Source: Bacteroidales bacterium (GTDB lineage: Bacteria > Bacteroidota > Bacteroidia > Bacteroidales > UBA932). From it: DNA of 48,918 nt. The stretch spans positions 1 through 48,918 of the forward strand of contig JAFVWT010000005.1 of NCBI GenBank assembly GCA_017501525.1. Reading direction: 5' to 3'. This document shows, in pieces, positions 18,593 through 33,414 of the stretch. The notes under the pieces were generated by a model. It saw only the letters and a list, made by a program, of their open reading frames with translations, made no database searches and was not told the origin of the DNA. The first letter of the stretch is position 1. Every line of letters begins with the position of its first letter. The position numbers and the translations under genes were made by a program.

Positions 18593-18658
18593 GTCACTCC
18601 TGCAACAATTAATGTCACTTTAGTCCTACTACTATAACTTATCTTATCTGTAAATTTG
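18593..18658 (+). promoter_or_regulatory. site A: 21-bp-spaced GTCAC direct repeats plus -7 box
   Basis: GTCAC occurs at 18593-18597 and 18614-18618, exactly 21 bases apart (two helix turns), in the wider contexts AATGTCACTCC and AATGTCACTTTA. The -7 box TAAATTTG (18651-18658) follows the second copy after 32 bases. No good TTTG -33 is present, as expected for an activator-dependent promoter. The same arrangement recurs at sites B (28619-28683) and C (33349-33414). The likely binder is the hybrid regulator at 30372-33344. Confidence 0.7.
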
Positions 18659-18683
18659 TAAAAACCTTATAAATTATTGGATT

Positions 18684-19082
18684 ATGGATATAACAATCAA
18701 GTTTCAGGAAATTACAAATTTGCTAAAAAGGGTAGCAAATGCAGATGTATGTGTAAAATATATTGATACGAACTCAATTCAGGTAATTCATAATGCTCAG
18801 GAGGGTTCTGCTATTCCTTCTTTTGATGTAAAGTTGAAGTTTGAGTTTGTTGGAGAAAACAAGTTCAAATTGCATTATCAGTGTGATGAGTCTCTTTCTG
18901 CAATGGTAGTTGGTCTTCTTGCAATGGCAAATATGAGTGGGGTTGGTATCAATTCAGCTGACAAATATATTCAGATCGACCTCAATGCTGTGGAGGTGGC
19001 TGAACCTTTTGTATCGAATGCATCATTTGCAGATATTGTATTTGATGAAGAGGGATTGCTGATCAAACTCCCTATAAAGTAG
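18684..19082 (+). CDS. small soluble protein of unknown function, first gene of a surface operon
   Basis: I do not recognise this 132-residue protein. It has no signal peptide or membrane helix. A helix-like start (MDITIKFQEITNLLKRV) is followed by beta-rich text (SFDVKLKFEFVGENKFKLHY), a small-residue stretch (GLLAMANMSGVGINSA) and an acidic-hydrophobic tail. It is probably cytoplasmic. It is the first gene behind site A and is followed after 98 bases by an exported OmpA/DUF3575 protein, so it should be co-regulated with surface proteins. The reading frame and spacing are convincing; the function is open. Confidence 0.7.
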   Translation: MDITIKFQEITNLLKRVANADVCVKYIDTNSIQVIHNAQEGSAIPSFDVKLKFEFVGENKFKLHYQCDESLSAMVVGLLAMANMSGVGINSADKYIQIDLNAVEVAEPFVSNASFADIVFDEEGLLIKLPIK

Positions 19083-19154
19083 TCCTGGAGCATAGTCAAG
19101 ACCGATTGTAGAGTCAGGACCGAAAAGAAATTATTAAGTTAAATTTAAAATGGC

Positions 19155-19171
19155 GGGAATTGTATATTCCC
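19155..19171 (+). promoter_or_regulatory. small hairpin just upstream of a start codon
   Basis: GGGAAT (19155-19160) and ATTCCC (19166-19171) form a six-base stem ending nine bases before the ATG at 19181. It could mask the ribosome site of the OmpA/DUF3575 gene. Its size also allows a chance occurrence. Confidence 0.3.
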
Positions 19172-19180
19172 CTTTAATCT

Positions 19181-20434
19181 ATGTTGAGAAAATTTTTATT
19201 TATAGTTTTATGGACAATTGTCCCAGTGGGCCTTTCTGCTCAGGCATTGTCTGAAATTTGGGTTACATCTGATACCTTGCAGGTATATTTCCCTCAAGGT
19301 GAGTCAATACTTGAACCTGAGTTCCGTAATAATGGGGAGAGTCTAAAGAAGTTTACCGAGAATTTCCATCAGATGAAGGAGACAGAAGGTAGTAAAGTTA
19401 TGAGTGTTTTGATTGTTTCTGGTGCTTCCCCCGAAGGAAGAATAAGTCTTAACCGCAGATTGTCTGATGAGAGAGCTAATGCTGTTTTAGATTATTTGCT
19501 TGAGCAGGAACTTCTTGATCCGTCAGAAGTGGATGTGGAGTCAAGAGGTGTAGACTGGAAAGGGCTTTATACTATTATGGAGTATTCTGACTTGCCGTAT
19601 CGTCAGGATGTGATGGCTATAATTTCAGGCCCTGAGACCGATACAGTCAAAGGTAAAGTGATAGAGGTCAGACAGAAAGCTCTTATGAATCTTGATAATG
19701 GGAAGGTGTGGAATGAAATATACGATAACTATTTCCCAAATCTTCGTGGAACAATGGTTATGATTGTGTGGAATATCAAAAGGGAAATCAAGATACCTGC
19801 CCCTATCGTCTCTGCTCCTGAACAAGTTTCCGAGCCAGAATTGGAGACTGCTCCACAGCCTCAACCAGAAATAAAGCAGCTTCCTGAACAAAGTCCCGCT
19901 CCTGCTCCCGCGTGGTCATTTGCAATGGTGGCAAAGACAAATCTTTTATATGATGGAATGTTGATTCCCAATCTCGGTGTTGAATTTGGTATATGGAAGG
20001 GATTGGTTCTGGATATCAATTATATGCATAATATCTGGCTAAGAGTGGATTATTCTTACTGGTACAGAGTGCATGGCGCAGAATTCGGTCTTAAATATTA
20101 TTTCAATAAGGAAAAAGTTCCTTTTAAAGAGGGTCACCATGTCGGACTTTATGCACAAATGCTCACTTTTGATATTACCGGAATACTTGTTGATGCAGAG
20201 CCCTGGAAGTTTGGTCCGATGTTGACTTATGGTTATACTCTTCCTATTACCCGCAGATTGAATCTCGATTTCGAGGTTGGTCTCGGATTGCTTTTTGGCG
20301 ATGTATATAAATATGATGCGGTGGATCATTTAAGACTCCTTAGGGAGATAGAGGATTTCGCTTTTGTCCCTAAAGCAGGAGTGACACTTCAATATTTGAT
20401 AGGTAAGAATAACTATAACCAAAAGAAAAAATAA
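19181..20434 (+). CDS. exported OmpA-like / DUF3575 two-domain protein
   Basis: The 417-residue protein has a signal peptide (1-22, ending GLSAQA). It carries an OmpA-like peptidoglycan-associated domain (about 25-190, with VYFPQGESILEPEF and SGASPEGRISLNRRLSDERANAV), a proline/glutamate-rich linker (about 205-243) and a C-terminal DUF3575 domain (about 245-400, AKTNLLYDGMLIPNLGVEFGI, YYFNKE), which is predicted to form a barrel. In Bacteroidetes such proteins often accompany fimbrial or surface-lipoprotein genes. It lies 13 bases before a lipoprotein gene. Function is inferred as envelope attachment or surface assembly. Confidence 0.8.
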   Translation: MLRKFLFIVLWTIVPVGLSAQALSEIWVTSDTLQVYFPQGESILEPEFRNNGESLKKFTENFHQMKETEGSKVMSVLIVSGASPEGRISLNRRLSDERANAVLDYLLEQELLDPSEVDVESRGVDWKGLYTIMEYSDLPYRQDVMAIISGPETDTVKGKVIEVRQKALMNLDNGKVWNEIYDNYFPNLRGTMVMIVWNIKREIKIPAPIVSAPEQVSEPELETAPQPQPEIKQLPEQSPAPAPAWSFAMVAKTNLLYDGMLIPNLGVEFGIWKGLVLDINYMHNIWLRVDYSYWYRVHGAEFGLKYYFNKEKVPFKEGHHVGLYAQMLTFDITGILVDAEPWKFGPMLTYGYTLPITRRLNLDFEVGLGLLFGDVYKYDAVDHLRLLREIEDFAFVPKAGVTLQYLIGKNNYNQKKK

Positions 20435-20447
20435 TCAGAAAACAATT

Positions 20448-21338
20448 ATGAAGAATAAATATTTAAAAATAGTATTGATATTGGCTTCTGCTGCATTTGT
20501 TTCATGTACAAAGCACGACCCTTTTGATAATTATCCTCCAAAGGGACCGATATGGATCCTTTCTTGTTTTGAATCTGAAAATTATTCGGACAGGAATACG
20601 AATAACTTTTTCTCTTATGCCGATTTGGTGGATAATGGGCTTCTACAGGTTTCACAATCTAATGGAGGTGGATATTTCCGCGTTCCCACATCAGGAGAAT
20701 TGCAGATGATTTTTCCGAAATTTGAGGATATGGAGATTGTAGATCGATATAGCATCAGTTTGCCTTTAAGTTTTGAGTGGCTTCCTACAGAGGATATAAT
20801 AATATTTAATGAGACAGCCTATCTGGAGAATAATAATAATGGTTCTGTTTATAAAAACGGAGAGACAGTAAGTGGAGAAAGTAGGATTTGTTATATAACT
20901 GACCCCGATAGTCAATATTTGTTGAATTTTGCACTTCGTTTTAAGGGGACATCCCAATATGCTGCATACCGATATGAATTGAAGGAACTTTCATATAATT
21001 CTCAGTATATTTTGATAAATCTCAAAGCGAAATGGCTCAAGGCGGATGATACTTCAACGACAATGGAAGATATTGTAAAACAGGATTATTGGGATTCAGA
21101 TTATTTTGAATTAAATATCCCTCTTGAGTTCTATAATGATGGAAACAATATTTTTGCAGACAGGTGTGGACTGTTATCGTCAACATTGGAATATGGTTCA
21201 CCTGTAATTGGTTGTTACGATTGGGAACTTGCAGGAATGGATAAAGATAATTCCGAGGATCTATATAAGTATAATCTTAGAATGATAGGCTGTAATCAGG
21301 AAGGTGAACCGGTTAGTAGAATTAATGAAGGCAAATAA
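20448..21338 (+). CDS. surface lipoprotein of unknown function
   Basis: The 296-residue protein begins with a lipoprotein signal peptide (LASAAFVSC, lipid cysteine at residue 20). Two stretches recall the Bacteroidetes/Fibrobacter 'major paralogous domain' lipoproteins: FRVPTSGELQMIF and YLLNFALRFKGTSQYAAYRYEL. The rest is aromatic- and asparagine-rich beta-type sequence. It ends the operon that starts at 18684, before hairpins at 21342 and 21384. Probably anchored in the outer membrane. The ligand is unknown and the family call is tentative. Confidence 0.7.
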   Translation: MKNKYLKIVLILASAAFVSCTKHDPFDNYPPKGPIWILSCFESENYSDRNTNNFFSYADLVDNGLLQVSQSNGGGYFRVPTSGELQMIFPKFEDMEIVDRYSISLPLSFEWLPTEDIIIFNETAYLENNNNGSVYKNGETVSGESRICYITDPDSQYLLNFALRFKGTSQYAAYRYELKELSYNSQYILINLKAKWLKADDTSTTMEDIVKQDYWDSDYFELNIPLEFYNDGNNIFADRCGLLSSTLEYGSPVIGCYDWELAGMDKDNSEDLYKYNLRMIGCNQEGEPVSRINEGK

Positions 21339-21341
21339 CTC

Positions 21342-21361
21342 AACTCAATTTTAATTGAGTT
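21342..21361 (+). terminator. short perfect hairpin after the lipoprotein gene
   Basis: AACTCAATT and AATTGAGTT form a perfect inverted repeat around two T, four bases past the stop codon. It lacks a clear T-run and probably protects the mRNA end or assists the stronger hairpin that follows. Confidence 0.45.
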
Positions 21362-21383
21362 CTCAATCATGTAGGTTTATTGT

Positions 21384-21425
21384 TTTACGAGGTGCGATAT
21401 GTTATCGTAACCTCGTAAATTTTAT
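21384..21425. terminator. strong terminator of the 18684-21338 operon
   Basis: TTTACGAGGT (21384-21393) pairs perfectly with ACCTCGTAAA (21410-21419). Inside, CGAT/ATCG extends the stem. TTTTA follows. It can act on both strands. Confidence 0.75.
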
Positions 21426-21485
21426 ATGGGCACCTGTCTTTTATAACAACGATAGAGATAATTATGCTGCCCTTCAAAAATCTTA

Positions 21486-21517
21486 TTTGCGAAATTCTTG
21501 AACAAACATTAAATTTG
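21486..21517 (+). promoter_or_regulatory. promoter of the TerB-like gene
   Basis: TTTG (21486-21489), a 20-base spacer and TAAATTTG (21510-21517) match the Bacteroidetes consensus exactly. The start codon at 21563 follows after about 40 bases. Confidence 0.7.
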
Positions 21518-21562
21518 TAGACAATTAGTTGCTGCCAATTATAACCACTAAAGGATACTAAT

Positions 21563-21877
21563 ATGAATATAACTGAATTTAAAGTGATGGCATTATTGTA
21601 TGTGGCAAACATTGATGGAAATGTTAAAGCTGAGGAAGTAAGAGCTATTATTGAAAAAACTGACAAGAGTACATTCGAGAGTGTAAATGCACTTTTCTCG
21701 AAAATGAATGATGCAGAAGTTCTGGATTACATCAATAAAAACAAGCCTGCATTTATCTCTACAGCATCTGATCTTCAAGTATTGATAAACGACTGTCGCG
21801 CCATTATCTCAGCCGATAATAAAAATACAGTGATGGAAGAATATATTGTTAGAGCATTGGAGAGAATCTTAAGATAA
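21563..21877 (+). CDS. TerB-like helical protein
   Basis: The 104-residue acidic, all-helical protein begins FKVMALLYVANIDGNVKAEEVRAI, which matches the TerB/DjlA-type helix pair with its acidic DG turn. That domain binds divalent metal in tellurite-resistance and related proteins. No other ter genes are near, so a tellurite role is not implied. It is monocistronic, with its own promoter at 21486-21517. A palindromic repeat starts right after its stop codon. Confidence 0.65.
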   Translation: MNITEFKVMALLYVANIDGNVKAEEVRAIIEKTDKSTFESVNALFSKMNDAEVLDYINKNKPAFISTASDLQVLINDCRAIISADNKNTVMEEYIVRALERILR

Positions 21878-21988
21878 CTCCAATAAATTACATGTTTAAA
21901 GGATAGGATTTCAAATCTTTGCGTTCTTTATGTTTTTTCTTGTGGAAAATTCCATAAGCCTTCGCCAAGTCATTTATTGAACATCCCT
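21878..21988 (+). repeat. dispersed palindromic intergenic repeat, copy 1
   Basis: This copy aligns along its whole length with the reverse complement of the copy at 29449-29564. Shared landmarks in order are ATAAATTACA, GTTTAAAGG, TTTGCGTTCTTTATG, GAAAATTCCATAA and GAACATCCC. The centre TTTATG/CCATAA folds into a hairpin. Confidence 0.65.
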
Positions 21989-22028
21989 TAAAGTAATTTA
22001 TAATCCATTTTTAACAATAGCTGAATAA

Positions 22029-22076
22029 CCCCGTTCGTAATATTGCTCGGTGCAATAGCGGACGGGGTGATTTTTT
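22029..22076 (+). terminator. GC-rich terminator in the gene-free stretch
   Basis: CCCCGTTCG (22029-22037) pairs with CGGACGGGG (22059-22067), with one G-T pair. The inner stem TATTGC/GCAATA makes a long two-part hairpin, and six T follow at 22071-22076. It is probably the end of the TerB-like transcript. Confidence 0.7.
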
Positions 22077-22126
22077 AGAAGGGTAGTATCATTTTATAAG
22101 TAGCTTCTGTAACTCTCTAAAATTAA

Positions 22127-22180
22127 GTCATTCCAGATCTTAAGTGGAGATAGATGCTCGGTCAAGCCAAGCATGACGAT
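22127..22180. repeat. degenerate REP-like palindrome
   Basis: The text GTCATTCC, then TGGAGATAGATGCTCGG, then TCAAGCCAAGCATGACGA resembles a widespread bacterial intergenic palindrome in which ATGCxCGG and CCGxGCAT flank TCAAG. Here the second arm has drifted (CCAAGCAT). The assignment is from memory of the motif. Confidence 0.45.
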
Positions 22181-22201
22181 TTAGGTTTTATTGGCATTTA
22201 A

Positions 22202-22408
22202 GGGGATTATTGTAAATTCCACGTTTTAAAGTTATGATGATTTAACCTTAAAACGTGGAATTGAAAAGTTTTGCGTTCTTTATGGCTTTTCTTGTAATCT
22301 TCCCACCTTCCTATCACTCACATTGCACCGTTATGCTCAATCAAGAAAAATGAAAATCTTCTCGGAGAAAATTCCATAAATCCCAGCAAAGTCTTTTATT
22401 TAACATAC
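22202..22408 (+). repeat. dispersed palindromic intergenic repeat, copy 2 (with insertions)
   Basis: The same landmarks as copy 1 and the copy at 29449 appear in order: GTAAATTCCACGTTTTAAAG, TTTTGCGTTCTTTATGG, GGAGAAAATTCCATAAATC, CAGCAAAGTCTTTTAT and AACAT. Two extra parts interrupt it. One is a perfect-looking hairpin (CCACGTTTTAA at 22219-22229 with TTAAAACGTGG at 22248-22258). The other is about 60 bases between TTTATGG and the final GGAGAAAA. It abuts the stop codon of the lipoprotein gene at 22409 and may end that transcript. Confidence 0.65.
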
Positions 22409-23299
22409 CTAAATTTTGTTTGCTACGATAATATTGTCGAGTCCAAATGCAAATTGGTCTGTTACATCGTGGTGTCTGAATACAATTCTGATTGTTTTTC
22501 CTGCAAATTGTTCTAATTCTACAGATTTGAGGCTGTAATCAGCCGTACTTAATGTTTCACTGAATACTTCTGTGTCATTTTCTCCCTCTCTGATATACAC
22601 TGTGTAATGTTCTGCATACCAACTTATGTCTGTGGCAAATACAGTCCAAGAGAGTGTGTATTCTCCGCTTGGGATAGTTATCTCGGGGCTGATAAGGTAA
22701 TTGTCAGGTGTAAGTGCTGCACCTGTATCATTGCTGTATGATAATGATACTATGGCATCTGTATCATCCACTCCTACAGGTTGACGGAATATGACACTTC
22801 CCAACTCCCAATTGAATCCATCTCCATCGGCATCAACGACCTCCCATCCTTCTGAAAGTCCTGAATCAAAATTTTCAGAAAGAAGAACGTCGGTTTCCGG
22901 GTTTTCCGGGTTTTCTGGGTTTTCCGGATTTTCCGGATTTTCCGGATTGTCAGAACTTATAACATTAACCTTGAAGTATGCTTCTACTTTTTCGTAAAAA
23001 GCGGTTATGTAGGTTTCCCCTTCAGAAATACCTTCAATAGTACCATCTTCAACAGAAGCAATACTTTCGTCCTCGCTATACCATTCAAGAAGTATATTCT
23101 GGTCGGCATTTTCAGGAAGAAGCTCGTATGTGACATTGAATTCTTCCCCAATTTCTAAGGTAAGGATATCATCAATTATGTTTGTGAAGATAATCTCTTC
23201 AACCTGAACGCTCTCTTCCTTTTGTTCTTTCTTACAAGAAGAAAAGATTGCGGCACAGCAAATAATGATTGCTGTAATGATTATCATCTCTCTTTTCAT
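22409..23299 (-). CDS. Big2/choice-of-anchor-J surface lipoprotein
   Basis: The 296-residue protein has a lipoprotein signal peptide (AAIFSSC, lipid cysteine at residue 21). A bacterial Ig-like Big2 domain follows (about 35-115; IEGISEGETYITAFY). Next is a tandem PEN tract (about 117-134) and a C-terminal choice-of-anchor-J type domain (about 138-296, starting SENFDSGLSEGWEVVDADGDGFNWELG). Its Big2 domain resembles that of the 624-residue neighbour (EIIFxN near the start, ASVEDG), so the two are paralogues. It is the last gene of the six-gene operon driven from site B. Confidence 0.82.
   Translation of the reverse strand: MKREMIIITAIIICCAAIFSSCKKEQKEESVQVEEIIFTNIIDDILTLEIGEEFNVTYELLPENADQNILLEWYSEDESIASVEDGTIEGISEGETYITAFYEKVEAYFKVNVISSDNPENPENPENPENPENPETDVLLSENFDSGLSEGWEVVDADGDGFNWELGSVIFRQPVGVDDTDAIVSLSYSNDTGAALTPDNYLISPEITIPSGEYTLSWTVFATDISWYAEHYTVYIREGENDTEVFSETLSTADYSLKSVELEQFAGKTIRIVFRHHDVTDQFAFGLDNIIVANKI
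22893..22947. repeat. tandem 9-bp repeat encoding Pro-Glu-Asn
   Basis: About six units of GTTTTCCGG, or variants with ATTTTCCGG, run in frame and encode the PEN linker between the Big2 domain and the C-terminal domain of the lipoprotein at 22409-23299. Nine-base units keep the frame when copy number changes. Confidence 0.85.
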
Positions 23300-23305
23300 G
23301 GTTGT

Positions 23306-23584
23306 TTATTTTATAATCTCGTTTATTTTGTTGTCAATTGCATCATCTATTTTGTTGTCAATCTTGTTCTTGACATTTCTGATTTTGCTCTGAGCCTTAT
23401 ATTTGACCTCATCTTTGACCTCATCTATTTTCTCCTGGATATATTCTTTTCCTGCATCTTTGATCCTCTCCTTGACTGAGTAGTTGTCATAAGGGACTCC
23501 ATACTCGACTTTGTAGTATTTATGATTGCCAATGCCCAAAAGATCGAGAATCCGGTGTAGGATATTTGAGAGATATTGGCTCAT
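23306..23584 (-). CDS. small charged helical protein with a YGVP motif
   Basis: This 92-residue protein (from MSQYLSNILHRIL) is not recognised as a family. The N-terminal third (LLGIGNHKYYKVEYGVPYDNYSVK) resembles the start of the radical-SAM-associated lipoprotein at 43212-43688 (LLGISMTG..., CEYGVPHAEFEVKGK) but lacks a lipobox. The rest is a long, highly charged helix with repeats such as KIRNVKNKIDNKIDDAIDNKI. An in-frame ATG seven codons earlier would overlap the previous gene; this start lies 10 bases after that stop. It is the fifth gene of the six-gene operon. Confidence 0.65.
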   Translation of the reverse strand: MSQYLSNILHRILDLLGIGNHKYYKVEYGVPYDNYSVKERIKDAGKEYIQEKIDEVKDEVKYKAQSKIRNVKNKIDNKIDDAIDNKINEIIK

Positions 23585-23594
23585 ATTCAAAATG

Positions 23595-24527
23595 TTATTT
23601 ACCAAAATAGTAGTTCAAACTAATTCTGCATCCGATATTTTCTGTTCCGTAAAGGACTGCATTGCTACCGGGACTTACAAGTGAGTTAAATTCCATTACG
23701 CTGCCTGAGTTGGAGTTGAACCCTTCATAAACTGTCCAGGTCTGAGGTTGGAATGTGAACATGACGGGGGTAAAATTAAGGGCAAGTCCCAATGAAAGGG
23801 ATTCGGCAACAAAGCACTCAAGCCCCATATCTACCGAGAATCCGATTCCATGGATATATCCCTGGTTGTAACTTTCAACAGGACGTGCGTATGTGATTCC
23901 GTTCACTGCCATAAAGTCGTTGACTCCACCATCTTGTATGGTTCCCATCAAAGGCATTGTAGTAGGTACTCTATTATATTCGGTCATTTGATTTCCATAG
24001 GAGTAGTTGAGTTTTCCACCTGCAATGGAGTATATAACATCCCAACCCCAAACAAAGCGTACAGCTCTTTCTCCGAGTTTGTACTCGCCCCCAAGCATAA
24101 TGGAAACGCTGTTATATGCTGACGTTGCGCGGTCCACTACTTTGTTTTGTGTGTTTGGATCCAATGAGTAAGAAAGGTCATCCCTTACATATTCATTATA
24201 GTTTACAACACTACCATTGATACCTATTGTAGCTCTTAGTGCGCTTTTTTGTGAGGTCTGGTATTTGATACGGACTGCAGCCAATGGGTCTTTGGACATA
24301 ATGAACATTTGTTTTGGATTGAGGGCAAGAGATGATATATATTCTCCCGCAAAATCACCTGACTCCGGTTGGATTGCAATTCCTGAGCTGATACTTGCCG
24401 GGTTGAATGTCACTCCAATTGCCCAGTCACCCTTTTTAGGAATATAATATTTCTTCTCTTGCGCTTGCAAATTTGAAATGCTTGCAAGTATTCCCAATAG
24501 AGCAAGAATGAGTATAGTTCTTTTCAT
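23595..24527 (-). CDS. outer-membrane beta-barrel protein of the surface operon
   Basis: The 310-residue protein has a signal peptide (1-22, ending SNLQA). The rest reads as alternating amphipathic strands with Gly/aromatic pairs: GDWAIGVTFNPAS, SIMLGGEYKLGERAVRFVWGWDVIY and GFSVDMGLECFVAESLSLGLALNF. It closes with ENIGCRISLNYYFGK, a typical C-terminal barrel strand. No catalytic motif is visible. It is the fourth gene of the operon, flanked by a lipoprotein gene upstream and the small YGVP protein downstream. It may be the membrane port or anchor for the secreted partners, which is an inference from context. Confidence 0.78.
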   Translation of the reverse strand: MKRTILILALLGILASISNLQAQEKKYYIPKKGDWAIGVTFNPASISSGIAIQPESGDFAGEYISSLALNPKQMFIMSKDPLAAVRIKYQTSQKSALRATIGINGSVVNYNEYVRDDLSYSLDPNTQNKVVDRATSAYNSVSIMLGGEYKLGERAVRFVWGWDVIYSIAGGKLNYSYGNQMTEYNRVPTTMPLMGTIQDGGVNDFMAVNGITYARPVESYNQGYIHGIGFSVDMGLECFVAESLSLGLALNFTPVMFTFQPQTWTVYEGFNSNSGSVMEFNSLVSPGSNAVLYGTENIGCRISLNYYFGK

Positions 24528-24602
24528 TGTCGTTTATTTCTAATCAGTTAAAAATTTATTATTAGTTGGTTCAGTGATATTCTGAAACTTGTTTTGTTCT
24601 GC

Positions 24603-25100
24603 TTAGGGTTGTGTTAAGCCAGGTTCTCCAACATTTGCAGCAGGTAGCAGAATAAGGTCAAAATATACGATGTCTCCACTGGGGATAGTTTTAGAAACCT
24701 CTCCAAAGAGATATGCTTCTGTCATAATCATTGAACCATTGGATGTTGCTGCGTATGAATCTTCCATCATAGAAGCATTTACTTTTACTGTAATACTTTT
24801 TCCAACAGGACATCCTAATTCTACTTCAAAATATCCGTCCTTATCAGTGGTAGTACTTTTATATGCAAAGTCTATGTTTCCTTCTTTGTCAGGAGTGCCA
24901 TACATTATGTTGATAAGTGTTCCTTTGTCCACTATATCCGGTGTGGTAAGTGTTCCATCCTGTTTGACTGTGCAGAAACGTGCGTGACCGGTAACTATAG
25001 CTTTAGTAGGAAGAGTGTCTCCATTTACTTGTGTTACTTCCTTTGTGCAGCTCGAAAGTGCGATAACTGCAACTGCGATAAGTGTAAAAATCTTTTTCAT
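24603..25100 (-). CDS. small lipoprotein with carboxypeptidase-regulatory-like fold
   Basis: The 165-residue protein has a lipoprotein signal peptide (VAVIALSSC, lipid cysteine at about residue 18). The body has the look of a single Ig/CarboxypepD_reg-type beta sandwich: VTGHARFCTVKQDG, then YKSTTTDKDGYFEVELGCPVGKSITVKV. The DGYFEV text is typical of that fold. It is the third gene of the six-gene operon. Predicted to be surface or periplasmic. No function is recognised. Confidence 0.7.
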   Translation of the reverse strand: MKKIFTLIAVAVIALSSCTKEVTQVNGDTLPTKAIVTGHARFCTVKQDGTLTTPDIVDKGTLINIMYGTPDKEGNIDFAYKSTTTDKDGYFEVELGCPVGKSITVKVNASMMEDSYAATSNGSMIMTEAYLFGEVSKTIPSGDIVYFDLILLPAANVGEPGLTQP

Positions 25101-25136
25101 TGTGATGATAGATTAGTGGTTAATATTAATTGTTAT

Positions 25137-27011
25137 TTAGTCTTTTACTGTTATGTAAAAAGTGAATTCATCAGGTATAAGTAACTTTCCTGAATATCTG
25201 TCAAGAGTAAATTCGTAGGTGCCGTTAGGGGTGTTTTCTGTAATTCTGATCTGGTATCCTTGGGTATCTCCAAAATTACTGCTCCATCCATCAGGATAAA
25301 TCCACTCATAATAATCGTAGACACTTTCTGAATAGAGTTCAGATGTATAAGTGAATGCATTACATATCATGCTGAATGCTCTTACGTTTGGACTTTCAAT
25401 GCCGTAGGCTGATTTGGATACCGTAAATGTAGAACCATTGGAGATAGTCTTGTCTGTGATATAATTACTGATGGAGAGATCATAATATCGTATTGTGACG
25501 CTGTTTATCTTATTTGTAAAGGTATTTTGGATAATTTTTCCGGCTCCCATATCAATACTGAAATTATAATCTCCCGGGATAGCTGCCTCTAAGACTATCC
25601 CATAATTTCCTCCAAAAACACCGTCATTTGAAATGGATACATTGTTGGAGTTTACTGTGATAGAAGCGTCCATGAACTTAGTAGAGCATGAACCATCAGC
25701 CAGAGGGAAGAAAAGGTAGTCAGTTTCAGTCTCTCCGTTAGATTCATAAAGGGCAGCGGCATCAATGATATAGAGATCAAGATATCCTAGTACTGAGCCA
25801 AATGTAGTTCTTATTGTATAGTCCCACATACCTCTTATACATATCCAATTGAATTCGGATTCTTTAAGCGAGCGGACTCTGATTGACTCTTTAAGACCAT
25901 TTGGGGCAGTAGCAGTAATCAAGACAGTGCCATGTCCTGTCGCAGTAATGAGACCATTTTGGTCAACAGTAGCGATATTATTGTCTTCAGAACTCCAAAC
26001 CAATTGATGTTCAAATCCCTCAGGAACGGTTACAATAGTCGGTTGTACAGTTTTATTATAATTTCTTAATGAACCATCAGGACAGATGTGATAGTATATG
26101 TTTCCGTCTGAAGGATCTTCCAAACTGAATGATGTAATCTGTGGCTCTGTTATCTCCAGCTGTACTTCGTCTGTGCAATTGTCAGCTCCGATAGCTCTGA
26201 TGGTTACATTTCCAAGTCCTATACCTGTAAGTTCCAAAGATTCCTCTCCGTTTTCCTGGACTATTTCATTGCTTTGAACCAGTCCTGAAGGAATAACTTC
26301 CCAGGTTATATTTTTATTGCTGGCATTTTCAGGATAGTAATTGATTAAAGCAGTGGTGGTCTGTCCCAATCCCAGACTGTGAAGTTCCAATACGATCTCA
26401 ATATCATCAAGAGGGATATACTCTTTTATGACGATAGGACAAGATGCTGTGTGGTGCTCTGTGGCTCCAATCAATTGTGTTTCACCCTCCTGAAGTCCTC
26501 TTACATATAGAGTGTTGTTTTCCACATAGGCCTCGGCAAGACCTGTATCTTCTACTGACCACTCTATTGCGCTGACAGGAGCCATAGCCGGTTCTATTTC
26601 GCTTACTTTCACCTGAACACTATTATCCTTAGATACTTCTACTATTTCAGGTAATGTGAAATGTGTGACGACTAATTCCTCAACGATTACATCAAATGAT
26701 TCGGAAATATCTCCACAAGAGGCAGTAATCTCTGTTCTTCCTACTTTGTTTGCTGTGATGATTCCATCTTCGACAGTCGCAACAGACTTCTTGCTGCTCT
26801 GCCATGTTATCTGAGCGATATCTTCCAGCTCTTCAGGAACGATGTCGTATCTTACTTTGAATGTTTCACCTACAAACATATTCAAGTTTCCATCCACATT
26901 TTTGAAAATGATTTCTGTTACTTGAGCATCCTGAGGTGACTCTTTCTTACAGCTGTGAACAATTGTTGCCACAGACAATAAAACTAAACTTAGAAATAAT
27001 ACCCGTTTCAT
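25137..27011 (-). CDS. multi-domain Big2 surface lipoprotein
   Basis: The 624-residue protein has a lipoprotein signal (VATIVHSC, cysteine at 21) followed by at least four Ig-like Big2-type domains (about 30-110, 112-200, 200-290, 300-380). The repeated signatures are SVATVEDGIITANKVGRTEITAS, VRGLQEGETQLIGA and NIATVDQNGLITATGHGTVLITA. A unique C-terminal part (about 385-624), rich in Tyr/Trp/Asn, may be the functional head. It is the second gene of the operon from site B. Big2 proteins are commonly adhesins or surface scaffolds; the binding partner is unknown. Confidence 0.82.
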   Translation of the reverse strand: MKRVLFLSLVLLSVATIVHSCKKESPQDAQVTEIIFKNVDGNLNMFVGETFKVRYDIVPEELEDIAQITWQSSKKSVATVEDGIITANKVGRTEITASCGDISESFDVIVEELVVTHFTLPEIVEVSKDNSVQVKVSEIEPAMAPVSAIEWSVEDTGLAEAYVENNTLYVRGLQEGETQLIGATEHHTASCPIVIKEYIPLDDIEIVLELHSLGLGQTTTALINYYPENASNKNITWEVIPSGLVQSNEIVQENGEESLELTGIGLGNVTIRAIGADNCTDEVQLEITEPQITSFSLEDPSDGNIYYHICPDGSLRNYNKTVQPTIVTVPEGFEHQLVWSSEDNNIATVDQNGLITATGHGTVLITATAPNGLKESIRVRSLKESEFNWICIRGMWDYTIRTTFGSVLGYLDLYIIDAAALYESNGETETDYLFFPLADGSCSTKFMDASITVNSNNVSISNDGVFGGNYGIVLEAAIPGDYNFSIDMGAGKIIQNTFTNKINSVTIRYYDLSISNYITDKTISNGSTFTVSKSAYGIESPNVRAFSMICNAFTYTSELYSESVYDYYEWIYPDGWSSNFGDTQGYQIRITENTPNGTYEFTLDRYSGKLLIPDEFTFYITVKD

Positions 27012-27060
27012 ATTATCTTGATTTTAAATTGTTTTTAATTTCTTGTTTAATGTGAAACCA

Positions 27061-28578
27061 CTATTTAGGCAATTGGGCTCCATATCCATCAATAACTCCG
27101 TATAAGTCAAATGCTTTCATGTATGGGTATCTGTTGCCGTACATACTGACTCTTACTATTTCGGTCCCTTGTTGGTTTTGTCCGAAGAGTCTGTTGAGCT
27201 GATTGGCTGCAGAGTTTCTGTCATAGTTTTGGTATTGTGTCATATTTAGTCCGAGGTATCCTTTAAGGTATGCTTCATCGATAGCTTTCGAGAACTTTTC
27301 AACCATCTCCGCAGGCATCTCCATATTCCCTTCATATTCCACCAATTGTTCGACATCCTCAAATTGCGCAGCAGATACGAACAACCATTTTCCACCACCT
27401 GAGGGGAGCATAAGGTCTGCATTGCCCATGTAATAACCAGATTGATTGAAGTTCATGAAGAACAGATTATCGGTTGCAGTAGTGATGCGGGCAGCCTCTA
27501 CCTGGGCATTTGCGTCAACATATACTCTTTCAAGTGCAGCATGGTTTGAGCAACCTAATATGTTGTTATATACTTTTGTCGTTATTCCGGTGTGGTATCT
27601 GAAAGCAACTCCCTGACTATCCATTACTTTTGTTCGGCACCATGAAAACAGTACCGTATTGTGATGGAAATCTACCGAGCATTGGCTGTGGTCTGCCAGC
27701 ATACCCCGAACCTCACACGATGCCATTCTGTTTGCAACAAATACATTATTATATATATCAAAATGGCCCCCTTTGCATCCCATTGAGAGTGCGAAGTCGT
27801 TGGCATTTATAAATGTGCAGTTACGTATGGTCACCTGTCCCTGGACATTTCCTCTCAGTAGCGGGACACTCAGAGGTGCTCCTCCTACAGTAGGAACCAT
27901 TGGACTTTCATCTACTGATATAATACGACCTGTTTCACAGCCTTCAGGAGACCCTGATACGGGATCTGAGGGGTTGTATTTGCAATATTTGTTGTATTCT
28001 CCTTTGTCAAAGCTGATACCATCGATAAGGACGACTCCATTAGTCTTTCCCGAAACATATATATCCATACTGGCGTGGGCTCCACTTGTGGCAAGATGTG
28101 TTGCGTCGGGGCGAATCCAGGTGATGTATTTTATCGGGTTGCGTTCAGAAAAATCACTTTTGTAACCTCCGATAATTGACATATATTTATTCAGCTCTAT
28201 AAAACCTTGATCCAATGTGCCCAGATAGTTTCCTTCTGCTACAAGAATCAGAGAGCCTTCGTCAGCGATATTGATCGCTTTCTGGAGGTCTTTTATGGCT
28301 GTCTGTGGCGATAGACCATCGTTACGGTTTGAACCTGTTGCGGCATTTACGTAGTATGTTTTACCGGATGAAATATCGGATTGGTGTGCTGCTTCTTTTT
28401 CAGCCTCTTTTTGTGCCTCATTTCTGGCTTTTTCGTTCCTTACAGCATTTTCAATTCGGTGCGCATTCCCCTTAACTTTATGGTATAGTTTGTTCAATTG
28501 TCCATAGGAGAATGATAAATTACCGAAAAGCAAGAGAGTTGTCAATACTGCAATTCTTATAAAAGTTGTTTTATTCAT
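27061..28578 (-). CDS. secreted right-handed parallel beta-helix protein (DUF1565-like)
   Basis: The 505-residue protein has a signal peptide (1-26, ending SFSYG) and then a charged helical stretch (about 30-65, NEKARNEAQKEAEKEAAHQ). A beta-helix domain opens with the DUF1565 hallmark YYVNAATGSNRNDGLSPQTAIKDLQKAI (from about 72), with later turns such as IRNCTFINANDFALSMGC and FDIYNNVFVANRM. Such domains bind or cleave polysaccharide, but no lyase triad is recognised. The C-terminal part (about 400-505) is unusual. It is the first gene of the site-B operon. Confidence 0.8.
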   Translation of the reverse strand: MNKTTFIRIAVLTTLLLFGNLSFSYGQLNKLYHKVKGNAHRIENAVRNEKARNEAQKEAEKEAAHQSDISSGKTYYVNAATGSNRNDGLSPQTAIKDLQKAINIADEGSLILVAEGNYLGTLDQGFIELNKYMSIIGGYKSDFSERNPIKYITWIRPDATHLATSGAHASMDIYVSGKTNGVVLIDGISFDKGEYNKYCKYNPSDPVSGSPEGCETGRIISVDESPMVPTVGGAPLSVPLLRGNVQGQVTIRNCTFINANDFALSMGCKGGHFDIYNNVFVANRMASCEVRGMLADHSQCSVDFHHNTVLFSWCRTKVMDSQGVAFRYHTGITTKVYNNILGCSNHAALERVYVDANAQVEAARITTATDNLFFMNFNQSGYYMGNADLMLPSGGGKWLFVSAAQFEDVEQLVEYEGNMEMPAEMVEKFSKAIDEAYLKGYLGLNMTQYQNYDRNSAANQLNRLFGQNQQGTEIVRVSMYGNRYPYMKAFDLYGVIDGYGAQLPK

Positions 28579-28618
28579 GGCGTCAGATTAACTTGTAAAT
28601 TAAGGAGGGTTTCATCTA

Positions 28619-28683
28619 CAAAATTAATCTTATGGTAAATTTCAAGTTAGTAATAAAGTGACATTGATTGTTGTTAAAGTGAC
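28619..28683 (-). promoter_or_regulatory. site B: 21-bp-spaced GTCAC direct repeats plus -7 box
   Basis: On the minus strand GTCAC occurs at 28683-28679 and 28662-28658, again 21 bases apart. The contexts are AAAGTCACTTTAACAACAA and AATGTCACTTTATTA. The -7 box TAATTTTG (28626-28619) follows after 31 bases. The first gene of the six-gene operon starts at 28578, about 35 bases after the expected transcription start. Orientation and geometry equal sites A and C. Confidence 0.7.
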
Positions 28684-28736
28684 TTTAGTTATGTTATAAA
28701 TCATTTTTTTGTAAAGAATGGGAATGTATTTTAAAA

Positions 28737-28744
28737 TATGTTTG
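28737..28744 (+). promoter_or_regulatory. -7 element of the lemA operon
   Basis: TATGTTTG matches TAnnTTTG. The nearest TTTG (28708-28711) lies 25 bases upstream, longer than usual. The leader to the lemA ATG would be about 115 bases. Confidence 0.35.
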
Positions 28745-28863
28745 TATATTTACAAATGAAGGGTGGAATTGGTGTTCTACCCGTTTGGGAAGTTGAATAT
28801 TAATGGTAAGGGGCTATGTGCTTCTGCTTTTCATGGCTCCTTGAATTTTAAATTTTATAAGTT

Positions 28864-29445
28864 ATGAAAAAAGGTATAATTATTCTAATTGCAGCAATTG
28901 TAGTCATAGGCATCTGGTTTATGGGCGGCTACAATTCTATGGTATCTTCAGAAGAGAAGGTTGAGGCTGCATGGTCACAGGTTGAAAATGTCTATCAAAG
29001 AAGAATGGATTTGATTCCAAATCTTGTAGCTACGGTCAAAGGGTATGCCGAGCATGAGTCAGAAACTTTTGAAAATGTGATAAATGCACGTTCAAAAGCT
29101 ACTCAAGTGACAGTGAGTCCTGAGAATCTCTCTCCTGAAGAGTTGTCCCAATTCAATAAAGCGCAAGGGGAGATTTCAAGTGCGCTCGGCAGACTGATGA
29201 TGATTACAGAAAATTATCCCGATTTGAAGGCTAATCAGAATTTCAGCGAGCTTCAGGCTCAACTCGAAGGTACAGAAAACAGGATTACTACCGAGCGTAT
29301 GAAGTTCAACGAGTGTGCAAAAGAGTACAATACTCTAATAAGAAAGTTCCCGAGAAGTATTATTGCATCTGTTTTCGGATTTGAAAGGAAGGGGTATTTT
29401 GAAGCTCAAGAAGGTGCTCAGAATGCTCCCGTCGTAGAATTTTAA
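28864..29445 (+). CDS. LemA family membrane protein
   Basis: The 193-residue protein has an N-terminal membrane helix (4-24, GIIILIAAIVVIGIWFMGGYN). The conserved LemA core follows, with YNSMVSSEEKVEAAWSQVENVYQRRMDLIPNLVATVKGYAEHE and later ETFENVINARSKA, and it ends in a helical bundle with KFNECAKEYNTLIRKFPRSIIASVFGF. The long helices face the periplasm or outside. Function is not established. It is followed by a TPM-domain gene, its usual partner, with a palindromic repeat between them. Confidence 0.93.
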   Translation: MKKGIIILIAAIVVIGIWFMGGYNSMVSSEEKVEAAWSQVENVYQRRMDLIPNLVATVKGYAEHESETFENVINARSKATQVTVSPENLSPEELSQFNKAQGEISSALGRLMMITENYPDLKANQNFSELQAQLEGTENRITTERMKFNECAKEYNTLIRKFPRSIIASVFGFERKGYFEAQEGAQNAPVVEF

Positions 29446-29448
29446 TTA

Positions 29449-29564
29449 GGCTGGTTCTATAAAAGACTTTGCTGAGATTTATGGAATTTTCTCCGTGAAA
29501 AACCATAAAGGGCGCAGAAGTTTTGGAATTCAACCTTTAAAACGTGTAATTTATAGAATATCCC
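29449..29564 (-). repeat. dispersed palindromic intergenic repeat, copy 3 (best preserved)
   Basis: It fills the gap between lemA and the TPM gene. Read on the plus strand it is a large imperfect palindrome: AAAAGACTTTGCTGAGATTT (29461-29480) pairs with the part around GGGCGCAGAAGTTTT (29510-29524), around the inner hairpin ATGGAATTTTCTC/GTGAAAAACCAT. Outer ends GGTTCTATAAAA and TTTATAGAATATCC form an inverted pair, giving a MITE-like shape. The copies at 21878 and 22202 lie in the opposite orientation. Confidence 0.7.
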
Positions 29565-29581
29565 ATAAATATAAATAGATT

Positions 29582-30364
29582 ATGTTTGTCGGAACAAAAT
29601 TGAAGGTGGTCAAGGCAGTTTTATTGGCCACCATCTTATTCATTTCATCCATTGGCGCTCATGCAGTACCAGTTCCTCCTGTTCCTCAGCGTCTGGTCAA
29701 TGACTTTGCAGGGATTCTATCCTCAAAAGAGATTCACTCTTTAGAGCAAAGGTTGGTGGCATATGATGATACTACCTCTACCCAGATTGCAGTGGTAATT
29801 GTACCTGATCTTGAGGGAATGGATGCTGCCCAATATGCAACAGAGATAGGAGAGGAGTGGGGCGTGGGTTCAGGTGAATCCAATAATGGGGTGGTGGTCT
29901 TAGTGAAACCAAAGAATGATAATGGCTCCGGAGAGGTGTTTATCGCAGTCGGGTATGGATTGGAGGGTGCTATTCCTGATGCTCGTGTTAAAAGAATTAT
30001 AAATAATGTGATGATTCCCAGGTTTGTGGAAAATGATTACTATGGAGCAATAGCAGGTGCCTGTGAGGCTCTTATAAAATTGGCAGACGGGGAAGAGTTT
30101 GAACAATATGGAAATTCTGGTTCAGGTGAAGTACGTTTCTATCTTACAATAGTAATTACAATTCTTATTTTAATCCTTTTGGCCAAATTGTCCAGAAAGG
30201 GTGGTGGAGGAACTTCGGGAAATGGTCCTGGAGGGAATACAAGACACAGACCCAGAATGCCATATACCCATTACGGATGGGGCGGCAATTCAGGAAGTCG
30301 AGGAGGCTTTGGTGGCTTCGGAGGCGGTTCATTCGGCGGGGGAGGAGCCGGCGGCAAGTGGTAG
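29582..30364 (+). CDS. TPM domain membrane protein (YgcG-like)
   Basis: The 260-residue protein has a signal peptide (1-29), a TPM domain (about 35-175: VNDFAGILSSKEIHSLEQRL, TSTQIAVVIVPDLEG, VGYGLEGAIPDARVKRI), one membrane helix (about 184-202, FYLTIVITILILILLAKL) and a glycine-rich tail ending GGGSFGGGGAGGKW. The family, paired with LemA, is suggested to act in membrane quality control or as a phosphatase-like domain; neither is shown here. Its stop lies only 7 bases from the end of the convergent hybrid regulator gene. Confidence 0.9.
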   Translation: MFVGTKLKVVKAVLLATILFISSIGAHAVPVPPVPQRLVNDFAGILSSKEIHSLEQRLVAYDDTTSTQIAVVIVPDLEGMDAAQYATEIGEEWGVGSGESNNGVVVLVKPKNDNGSGEVFIAVGYGLEGAIPDARVKRIINNVMIPRFVENDYYGAIAGACEALIKLADGEEFEQYGNSGSGEVRFYLTIVITILILILLAKLSRKGGGGTSGNGPGGNTRHRPRMPYTHYGWGGNSGSRGGFGGFGGGSFGGGGAGGKW

Positions 30365-30371
30365 CTATCCT

Positions 30372-33344
30372 CTAACTGTTTGAACTTCTATATTGTGTGG
30401 GTGATACTCCTGTATGCTTCTTGAATATTGTACCGAAGTAGGAGATATCATCCACTCCGCATTTGTATGCTATTTCTCCGATTGGCAAGTCTGTGGAAGT
30501 GAGCAGTTCTTTTGCCATTTTTATTCTCATTCGTAGGATATATTCAGTGGTGGTCATCCCTGTTATAGCTTTGATTTTACGGTTGAGTTGTGTTCTTGTG
30601 ATACTGAATTTACAACCCAGCTCGGTATAATCTATTGAGCCTTGTTCCATTTGTTTAACAATCTCAATATTGAGTTTGTCTATAAAAAATTTGTCCTTGC
30701 AGAAACTTATACCTGTATTTACGGTTCTCTTTTCTACATCATCATTGTTGCAGTTTCCACTATCGGGTGAAAAGTTGTCCTTATAGGAATTCTCTTGATT
30801 TGGATCTGTGCTCAACTCAGAAAAATAAACCCGAAGTTTTGCCCTTTGCTCAAGTAGCATCTTTACCCTTATCGAGAGTATGTCAGAATCAAAAGGTTTT
30901 TCGATGTACGAATCAGCTCCTGCCGATAATCCCTTGATTTTATCTTCTTTGGATGTCCTTGCTGTAATCATTATCACCGGTATATGGGATAGCAGTTCGG
31001 AGTTTCTGATTCTCCGGCAGAATTCATAACCGTCTATTCCGGGCATCATGATGTCTGTAATGATAAGATCGGGGACAATCTCCTCTGCTTTCTTCAAGCC
31101 TTCCAGACCATCCATTGCAAATGAAAAATTGTATTGGGAATCAAGTTGGCGCATTTGCCAATAGGCCACTTCAGGATTGTCTTCGACAATTAGGATATTT
31201 GGTGCATCTTTATCAATGAAGGTTTCATTTTCTATTTGAATAGTTTCGCTCTCATTGTGGAAACTATCTGAGACATCCCAATCTGACATATCCAATGGCG
31301 TAGAATAGTTTTTATTGTAATTTATTGGTAATGATACGATAAACGATGAGCCTTTATCGGGTTGACTTTCAATTTCAATCTCTCCGCCCAAGGCCTCTAT
31401 TGTAAGTTTTACAAGTGAAAGGCCTATTCCTGTCCCAATGAATCCGCTATCTTCAGAGGCCTGGTAGAATGGTTTGAATATGTCTCTCCTCTGTTGTTCA
31501 TTGAGTCCGCTGCCCGTATCATGGATAATCAGTTCCAAGGAGTTTGTTCTCTGACTTGAATATTTTAATGAAATTTCTACTTGTGAATCGGGTTTGGAAA
31601 ATTTTACAGCATTGGATATAAGATTGTGCAGAATTCTGATAGTGTAATCCGGAACGAAGTTGATATCAAGACGTTCTATTTCAGATTTGAATGATATTGA
31701 AACATTTCTTTTTTCTCCGAAATGGCTGCAACCTTCGACTACCATTGTGACAAAACTTATGAAATCTCCATAGTGGTAATTCAGAGTACGGGAATATTCA
31801 GAGCGCATTTTTGATATTTCAAGCATCTGATTTACAAGGTTTAGCATAACTTTACCATTTCGGATGATGTCTGTGGCATCCTTTTTCATATGGATATCAT
31901 CAGGGGTATTGTCAATAATATCTTTTGCTGCTGCAATGATTATTGTAAGAGGGGTTCTGAATTCATGGGTTACGTTGGTGAAGAAATTTACTCTTGTTCT
32001 TTCCAACTCTTTCATTATCTGATTGTTTTTGGCACGAAGCCTTGCTGAATTCAATAGAAAGGCGATCATCAGAACAGCAAAAATTAGGATAACCATTATC
32101 AGATAGATACCCATTGTTATCCTTCTTCTTTCTTGTTGGTGCTTAGTTTTCAGATGGTTGAGTTCTGCTTCCTTTTTATCCTGCTCGTATTTTACCCTGA
32201 TATTCTGCATATGGGTAATATTCTTTTCATTATCTATCTGTTTATAGTACTCATTGCTTTTGGTCAGAGCTTCAAGTGCTTCACCTTGCCTTCCCTGCTG
32301 CTTGCGAAGCCTATGCTCCAATTCGTACACTTCTGCCAAATGACTTATGGAGTTGGTCTTTATTGCTTGTGTTTTGGCTTTGGCGAGGTAGTACTCTGCT
32401 TTCTCCAAATCATAGATGTTAAGATTGATTCTTATAATCGATATGCAGGATTCCAGCCAATGCCATATATCCGGACTGTTTTCCATAAGATTATAGGCAT
32501 TCATGTATTCCTTATATGCTTCCTCATATTCTCCCTTGATTTCATGCAGTCTTCCAAAATGAGTGTGGCAGAGAGAAAGTCCAAGATTGGAGTTTGCCCT
32601 TTTGTTGCATTCATAGGATTGTCTGTAGTAATATTCGGCTGAATCGAGCAACCCCCTGCGCTCCATTATTGCCCCGATGTTGGCGTAGTTTATTGCCTGG
32701 CCTATATCGCTACCCAGTTCTTTTTCTCCTTGAAGAGCTACTCTAAGGATGCTGTCAGCTACGACATTGTTTGAAAGGCTCATTTGTACATTTGCGATGC
32801 CATTGAGTGATATGACTTTGTTTTTTAGTGCTTTGCGGGAGATCTTATCAGAGTATGCGTCGCAATATGTTATAGCCTGATAGTGGTAGGATGAGGCTTC
32901 GTCAAGTATTCCCAATCTTCTGAAATCTGTTCCGATATTGTTGAGAGATTGGATTATCTCTATTGTATCCTTGCACTCAACTGCGACTTCCAGCCCTTTT
33001 TTATGGTATTCAAGTGCCTCTGAGAACATACTTGCATTTCTATAGCAGTTCCCCAACTCGCGCAATGTCGTCATTATGCCATAAATCTCATTTTCTTCAT
33101 AGAATAATTCGAGATATTTGTGAAGCGAGTCAATGTTGTGGTGTGCGAAGATAAGTGAGTCTATTCTTTGGACAGCCTCCGGATTCCTTTCTTGTTCTAT
33201 GTGTGAATCGGTGCAAGAGTAAAGAGTGAACAATGATATTGTCAGGAGCAATACCATATATATCTTGTATTTGAATCTATTTTGCTTAGAATAATTTTTT
33301 GGTAGCTGGTGTCTCATGTCTTTAAACATAGTGGTTGTTTTCAT
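30372..33344 (-). CDS. hybrid two-component regulator: TPR sensor, kinase, receiver, AraC
   Basis: This one-protein signalling system has up to 990 residues. An N-terminal hydrophobic segment ends in a lipobox-like LYSC (44). Extracytoplasmic TPR repeats (about 90-365), a coiled coil and a membrane helix (411-433) follow. The histidine kinase part has HEFRTP (His 460), N-box HNLISNAVKFS, DTGSGL (609-614) and GTGIGLSL (637-644). The receiver has Asp 764 in TDIMMPG and Lys 817. The AraC DNA-binding domain spans about 885-985. Most Bacteroides relatives sense sugars with beta-propellers; here TPRs replace them. The -7 box at 33349-33356 nearly touches the first ATG, so Met6 (33329) or Met10 (33317) is the likelier start. 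Confidence 0.93.
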   Translation of the reverse strand: MKTTTMFKDMRHQLPKNYSKQNRFKYKIYMVLLLTISLFTLYSCTDSHIEQERNPEAVQRIDSLIFAHHNIDSLHKYLELFYEENEIYGIMTTLRELGNCYRNASMFSEALEYHKKGLEVAVECKDTIEIIQSLNNIGTDFRRLGILDEASSYHYQAITYCDAYSDKISRKALKNKVISLNGIANVQMSLSNNVVADSILRVALQGEKELGSDIGQAINYANIGAIMERRGLLDSAEYYYRQSYECNKRANSNLGLSLCHTHFGRLHEIKGEYEEAYKEYMNAYNLMENSPDIWHWLESCISIIRINLNIYDLEKAEYYLAKAKTQAIKTNSISHLAEVYELEHRLRKQQGRQGEALEALTKSNEYYKQIDNEKNITHMQNIRVKYEQDKKEAELNHLKTKHQQERRRITMGIYLIMVILIFAVLMIAFLLNSARLRAKNNQIMKELERTRVNFFTNVTHEFRTPLTIIIAAAKDIIDNTPDDIHMKKDATDIIRNGKVMLNLVNQMLEISKMRSEYSRTLNYHYGDFISFVTMVVEGCSHFGEKRNVSISFKSEIERLDINFVPDYTIRILHNLISNAVKFSKPDSQVEISLKYSSQRTNSLELIIHDTGSGLNEQQRRDIFKPFYQASEDSGFIGTGIGLSLVKLTIEALGGEIEIESQPDKGSSFIVSLPINYNKNYSTPLDMSDWDVSDSFHNESETIQIENETFIDKDAPNILIVEDNPEVAYWQMRQLDSQYNFSFAMDGLEGLKKAEEIVPDLIITDIMMPGIDGYEFCRRIRNSELLSHIPVIMITARTSKEDKIKGLSAGADSYIEKPFDSDILSIRVKMLLEQRAKLRVYFSELSTDPNQENSYKDNFSPDSGNCNNDDVEKRTVNTGISFCKDKFFIDKLNIEIVKQMEQGSIDYTELGCKFSITRTQLNRKIKAITGMTTTEYILRMRIKMAKELLTSTDLPIGEIAYKCGVDDISYFGTIFKKHTGVSPTQYRSSNS

Positions 33345-33348
33345 ATTT

Positions 33349-33414
33349 CAAAATTACTCTAAAAATTGTGACAACTATTCTTGTTGGAGTGACGTTTTTT
33401 CTTGTTGGAGTGAC
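33349..33414 (-). promoter_or_regulatory. site C: three 21-bp-spaced GTCAC repeats and -7 box of the regulator gene
   Basis: On the minus strand GTCAC occurs at 33414-33410, 33393-33389 and 33372-33368, each 21 bases apart. The two distal copies share CACTCCAACAAGAA. The -7 box TAATTTTG (33356-33349) lies 32 bases after the middle copy, as at sites A and B. The third copy sits in the -33 region, where it could give feedback repression or tighter activation. Autoregulation by the encoded AraC domain is the simplest reading. Confidence 0.7.

Follow-up and report, generated by a model that had tools for sequence, protein, structure and literature searches.

The stretch of DNA analysed here, referred to below as the window, is the whole of contig C2 (48,918 nt) of a Bacteroidales genome assembly (1,527,634 bases, 82.8% complete), and it encodes a hybrid two-component system (HTCS) protein, P0006, a sensor-regulator that very probably controls a small set of genes. 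Judging from the DNA and its predicted proteins, P0006 is likely to bind direct repeats in front of two operons of the window (operon 1 and operon 2), of the lipoprotein gene P0015 on another contig (C9) and of its own gene, and to activate each of them.

At all three promoters of the window (Table 1), neighbouring copies of the word GTCAC are spaced by 21 bases, and at each of them one copy ends 31 or 32 bases 5' of an exact TAnnTTTG -7 box; the coordinates, strands, spacing and distance to the box given in a first-pass annotation of this DNA all proved correct on the sequence. Offsets given here place the start of GTCAC relative to the initial base of TAnnTTTG. The repeat unit named in that annotation, GTCAC(T), was present as well, but the half-site is really longer, comprising about 16 bases (GTCACTnnAACAAgAA) followed by a 5-base spacer, with a second box that is weaker in the proximal copies. 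At the regulator promoter, the -16 copy falls within the core promoter and is without the second box. The Bacteroides promoter consensus consists of TAnnTTTG at -7 and TTTG near -33 (according to the part of PMC7366714 available to us); at the promoters described here no TTTG near -33 was seen by eye, and an alignment of all four, including that of P0015, revealed little in common beyond the repeats and the -7 box.

The window holds four GTCAC-N16-GTCAC pairs, against a mean of 0.03 and a maximum of 1 in 100 dinucleotide-preserving shuffles, a result in line with the earlier estimate that coincidence is unlikely. In the window genome as a whole this pair occurs seven times: four times in the window, twice on contig C5, inside open frames and hence rejected as promoters, and once at a promoter on C9. 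A longer pattern, GTCACTNNNNCAANAANNNNNGTCAC, searched with up to three mismatches, yielded 18 matches compared to 13 for the reversed control, of which four were exact (all in the window), one had a single mismatch and 13 had two or three, among them a site on C7 with two mismatches that was discarded as lying inside an open frame. The one-mismatch site, C9:60523, was retrieved without requiring a -7 box; it lies between open frames and faces P0015, and it has a TAAATTTG box with GTCAC at -57/-36. Repeats and -7 box stand in register at these four promoters only, the outcome of a genome-wide scan of the kind which the first-pass annotation had proposed as a check, and the sites are consistent with the single regulon that it had envisaged. 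Its description of that regulon as self-contained fails, since one target promoter sits on another contig.

The arrangement is also rare among relatives, as GTCACN16GTCACN30-33TANNTTTG, with 4 sites in the window genome, was found at a single site apiece in 5 of the 397 other family genomes, the remaining 392 having none; among G157, G176 and G250 the site is near-identical in sequence. A stricter 20-letter pattern had one match (locus L121) in the collection genome_contigs, which may leave out the window's own genome. We judged this match to be due to chance, its repeats lying in the end of an open frame and about one match being expected by our own arithmetic; a small lipoprotein-like gene follows its -7 box, and inspection by eye of the listed frames of its 8 kb revealed no recognisable regulator.

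The likeliest binder of these repeats is P0006, as previously supposed, to judge from its HTCS domain set, the published 21-bp repeat of HTCSs and the sites at its own promoter. TPR_12, HisKA, HATPase_c, Response_reg and HTH_18 all scored over cut-off, the first of these bearing out the TPR repeats that had been read in the sensor part, and residues 713-989 (receiver-AraC) matched the solved HTCS protein 12aw (1.3e-43). The N-terminus appears signal-like by eye, with one hydrophobic stretch, and since only 12 bases separate the listed start from the beginning of the -7 box, the true start may rather be a later ATG. When 15 regulators were aligned (P0006, at window position 33344, and orthologues from loci L062, L096-L100 and L102-L108, that of G277 being truncated), a cysteine was seen after the hydrophobic stretch in 14 of the 14 that have an N-terminus, reminiscent of a lipoprotein signal despite these proteins being sensor kinases.

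Table 1. Repeat sites, -7 boxes, the regulator and its putative target genes in the window
Feature	Position	Strand	Remarks
Promoter 1, repeat pair	18593..18618	+	GTCAC at 18593/18614, offsets -58/-37; before gene start 18684
Promoter 1, -7 box TAAATTTG	18651..18658	+	exact TAnnTTTG
P0001	18684..19082	+	opens operon 1; 132 aa, without a family match and, by eye, without a signal peptide
P0002	19181..20434	+	DUF3575 (8.7e-23), OmpA-like stretch below cut-off; operon 1
P0003	20448..21338	+	lipoprotein-like by eye, no family; operon 1
P0009	22409..23299	-	possible member of operon 2 (295-base gap); Big_2 and Cleaved_Adhesin
P0007	23595..24527	-	exported by eye, no family; operon 2
P0008	24603..25100	-	lipoprotein-like; operon 2
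P0005	25137..27011	-	lipoprotein-like, Big_2 domains; operon 2
P0004	27061..28578	-	operon 2; looks exported by eye, matches a beta-helix weakly
Promoter 2, -7 box TAATTTTG	28619..28626	-	exact TAnnTTTG
Promoter 2, repeat pair	28658..28683	-	GTCAC at 28683/28662, offsets -57/-36; before gene start 28578
P0006	30372..33344	-	hybrid regulator: TPR, HisKA, HATPase_c, receiver, AraC-type HTH
Regulator promoter, -7 box TAATTTTG	33349..33356	-	exact TAnnTTTG; before listed start 33344
Regulator promoter, three copies	33368..33414	-	GTCAC at 33414/33393/33372, offsets -58/-37/-16

We propose that the TPR part of P0006, probably situated outside the inner membrane, senses a signal, and that the kinase part would phosphorylate the receiver. 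Two chains would bind the two 16-base half-sites through their AraC-type domains, the repeat distance of 21 bases corresponding to two helical turns. With its start 36-37 bases 5' of the -7 box, the proximal half-site would abut the -33 region, where it could aid polymerase at promoters without TTTG. The genes switched on in this way would be those of operon 1 (the DUF3575 gene and its partners), operon 2 (P0004, the Big_2 lipoprotein and their partners), P0015 and the regulator gene itself, at which the -16 copy might, though this is less likely than not, limit P0006's own expression. The position of this copy inside the core of the regulator promoter would also suit a system of opposite sign, in which P0006, bound to the same sites, would keep the genes repressed until released by a signal. 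At promoters 1 and 2 and on C9, however, both copies lie upstream of the core, and TTTG at -33 is missing by eye. Activators usually bind upstream of the core promoter, and we regard repression as unlikely.

The presumed targets are in the main exported or surface-type proteins, as the first-pass annotation had claimed for both operons, apart from P0001. P0015 has Big_2 domains and a weak FISUMP match. In a family scan, no SusC/SusD family was detected in P0001-P0005, P0007-P0009 or P0015, and no fimbrillin among the window's targets, the families found there being DUF3575 and Big_2.

Searches with P0006 gave matches at E <=0.001 in 19/19 genomes of the genus, the only long match elsewhere being that in G014 (554 bits), and the best E-value in the other 17 was 1.8e-20. 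With the TPR half as query, relatives were found in 21 of 398 family genomes (23 rows), 15 rows from 14 genomes being in frames of at least 900 aa, and, at the level of the order, in 12 of 393 genomes (14 rows, 10 in frames of that length); the window genome and G014 are included in both counts. Frames of this length probably carry the AraC end. When genome_contigs was searched at the protein level with the TPR part, no relative was found.

The closest orthologue found was that of G290 (49% over the TPR half, 46% over 971 aa; by part, 53% in the TPR, 42% in the kinase, 64% in the receiver and 55% in the AraC portion), and both of its AraC recognition segments are near-identical to those of P0006 (TRTQLNRKIKAITG; GVDD). 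Directly 3' of this regulator, overlapping its end and 5' of a Big_2 lipoprotein gene, we found the repeat GTATCCCAATTCATAA-N5-GTCACTTAATTCATAA, agreeing at 12 of 16 letters and placing GTCACT at -36 from a TAATTTTG box. Among mixed pairs, a repeat as good as this one arose at a frequency of about 0.0005, the scan covering 264 boxes, and GTCACT at -36/-37 was present at 5 of 292 boxes in 22 loci, namely the three of the window, that of C9 and that of G290. One further box, L109:4823, also reached 12/16 in the first register scan and was rejected as lying inside an open frame. A second repeat of the G290 type was sought in the G290 genome, yielding one two-mismatch site without the layout. Another G290 contig carries a Big_2 lipoprotein gene and relatives of P0008, P0007 and P0004 in a row (43, 49 and 61%); this Big_2 gene starts like the one adjacent to the regulator, the two contigs not being shown to adjoin. 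On contig C30 of G290 (L175:5825-6499), a 224-aa frame resembles the regulator's kinase-receiver linker at its start (45.5% to P0006 over 101 aa) but not at its end, which, along with the second Big_2 copy, suggests recombination around the locus.

These observations bear on the question of whether the repeats might be operators of another regulator, P0006 being merely one of its targets. Of the five HTH_18 stretches in the window genome (four over cut-off) P0006 has the strongest, leaving four elsewhere (three over cut-off) as candidates, and the assembly lacks about 17% of the genome. On the other side stand the agreement of the 21-bp spacing with the published HTCS layout (PMC3878776), the sites at the promoter of P0006 itself, whose gene lies between its proposed targets, and the finding of GTCACT in register beside the G290 regulator with its near-identical recognition segments. 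We therefore find such an outside regulator quite unlikely. That the promoters resemble one another only through DNA copied along with paralogous genes appears very improbable: P0005 and P0015 are indeed paralogous in their Big_2 parts, but the first genes (P0001, P0004, P0006 and P0015) are all different and little is shared outside the repeats and the -7 box. Chance can be dismissed, for although GTCAC alone is frequent (52 copies in the window, counting both strands), none of the 100 shuffles reached four pairs, and the four in-register sites here contrast with a single one in each of five other family genomes and none in the rest (392 of 397).

We then considered whether the register holds more widely, using 29 relatives' loci picked by protein similarity, the window genome excluded, with 314 -7 boxes. 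GTC-N18-GTC was found five times at -36/-37 (0.12 expected) compared to three times at 52 other offsets. The corresponding Poisson probability, 1.5e-7, is too good, as GTC was chosen after several sites were known; a table of all trinucleotides, made as a guard against this choice, placed GTC at the top, with TCA (4 vs 0.23 expected) and GCT (3 vs 0.04 expected) raised too. Four of the five pairs lie beside TPR hybrid regulators (G584, G713, G294 and G253), and the fifth is in G290 (L096:10206, + strand, GTC at -36/-57), before a gene that is SusC-like by eye and beside another hybrid regulator. In many of the relatives' loci such a pair is absent. A control of 80 loci with 181 boxes contained six pairs, all in loci fetched with a GTCAC pattern (L112, L114-L117 and L121), and none in the other 74. 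We consider it possible, if short of probable, that TPR hybrid regulators form a separate class, thinly spread over the order, which would control surface fibres and adhesin-like lipoproteins through a fixed code, GTC at about -37/-58, the other half-site letters co-varying with the AraC recognition segments in a private version per lineage; the same code may hold for HTCSs generally.

Several findings weigh against P0006 as the activator of such a surface regulon. In the comparison of orthologous promoters that had been recommended in the first-pass annotation, the layout was kept with partly different letters in some relatives, whereas no full GTCAC pair was found near the G014 orthologue, several relatives' loci had no repeat in register in the box scans, and G290 itself retains GTCAC in its proximal copy only. 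P0001, which opens operon 1, looks cytosolic, and with an assembly 82.8% complete further sites and regulators may be missing. Lastly, the P0004 family is present in 77 of 398 genomes and a TPR relative in 21, the two occurring together in 7 compared to about 4 expected, a weak co-occurrence; with P0004 relatives so much more widespread than the regulator, the link between the two is local and not obligate. Between the regulator and the facing gene of G014 (L062:7345-7581), GGACA/AGACA words about 22 and 33 bases apart were seen by eye, perhaps this lineage's own site.

A P0004 relative directly follows the regulator in G176 and G437, and in G600 a Big_2 lipoprotein intervenes. Among 30 loci carrying P0004 relatives, seven showed a repeat matching at 12 or more of 16 letters within the 500 bases 5' of the aligned start, no -7 box being required; by eye, only the window's own and that of L164 (G157) were credited. 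The promoters before P0004-type genes in G157, G176 and G250 have AAAAGTCC repeats 21-22 apart, with no exact TAnnTTTG in register. Sites of this type were seen at L140/L143:149 (-) and 455 (+), L133, L135 and L144:1501, including a facing pair in G250, and in G157 another precedes a stretch that is Big_2-like by eye and without a long frame. The AAGTCC pair of G157, G176, G250 and G277 was not enriched genome-wide (16 rows vs 60 in the reversed control).

Ten adjoining proteins of four loci were also scanned, and a tie to fimbriae was seen, by neighbourhood only: DUF3575, DUF3868, FimA (PF06321, PF22492) and Mfa2 lie beside the G584 regulator, and DUF3575 and Mfa_like_1 beside those of G507 and G687. 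In G161 (L177:5232-9647), a close P0004 relative (56%) faces separate kinase-like and response-regulator-like genes, as if a split pair had replaced the hybrid. Likewise, in L109, L110 and L111 (G037, G075 and G117), TPR kinases of about 640 aa adjoin separate response-regulator-like genes (by eye), split in the manner of FimS/FimR, the Porphyromonas gingivalis pair discussed below.

Many of the group's hybrid regulators lack known targets; those in the published set were selected beside sugar-uptake genes (PMC3878776). If the register rule were true across families, the targets of uncharacterised hybrid regulators would become predictable from sequence. Among published work, mainly open-access and surveyed by titles and abstract openings, we recognised no TPR-sensing hybrid regulators, surface regulons of theirs or instances of this repeat, and a search of the same scope for HTCS sites or footprints brought nothing relevant.

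The closest published counterparts are the AraC-type HTCSs of Bacteroides, which like P0006 combine a kinase, a receiver and an AraC-type HTH in a single chain. Of the 36 HTCSs of B. thetaiotaomicron, 16 have a predicted motif, in every case a direct repeat, with a mean distance of 21 bp, and HTCS_Man has two 16-bp sites with a 5-bp spacer (PMC3878776), much as in the window. The 21-bp repeat is thus known; what would be new here is an HTCS with a TPR sensor acting on surface-protein rather than sugar-uptake genes. The putative targets of P0006 were scanned without finding the SusC/SusD family, proximity to sugar-uptake genes being a criterion of the published set and not a strict definition, and the distance from repeat to -7 box is fixed here, for which we found no corresponding statement in the available part of PMC3878776. 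The receiver-DNA-binding part of Bacteroides HTCSs (PMC11253607; chain 12aw) is the same domain pair as P0006 residues 713-989; in the portion of that paper at hand, the promoters used in electrophoretic mobility shift assays drive SusCD homologues, unlike the putative targets of P0006.

In its sensor P0006 rather recalls FimS/FimR of P. gingivalis, in which a TPR-containing sensor kinase is likewise tied to surface-fibre genes (PMC11053733 and PMC1974823, as far as available). FimS has a periplasmic TPR sensor whose signal is not known, a polypeptide being proposed by the authors (PMC11053733, same extent). P0006 matched the FimS equivalog model at 5.1e-30, with 104.3 bits compared to a cut-off of 600, and other kinase and TPR models scored higher; with the TPR part alone the FimS model came second (5.2e-10), behind another TPR model. 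FimR is a separate protein, whereas in P0006 receiver and AraC-type output are fused. We interpret P0006 as an HTCS whose sensor is of a FimS-like type and which would act as a surface-protein regulator, a case uniting the sensor type of P. gingivalis fimbrial control with a fused AraC-type output and non-fimbrial surface operons.

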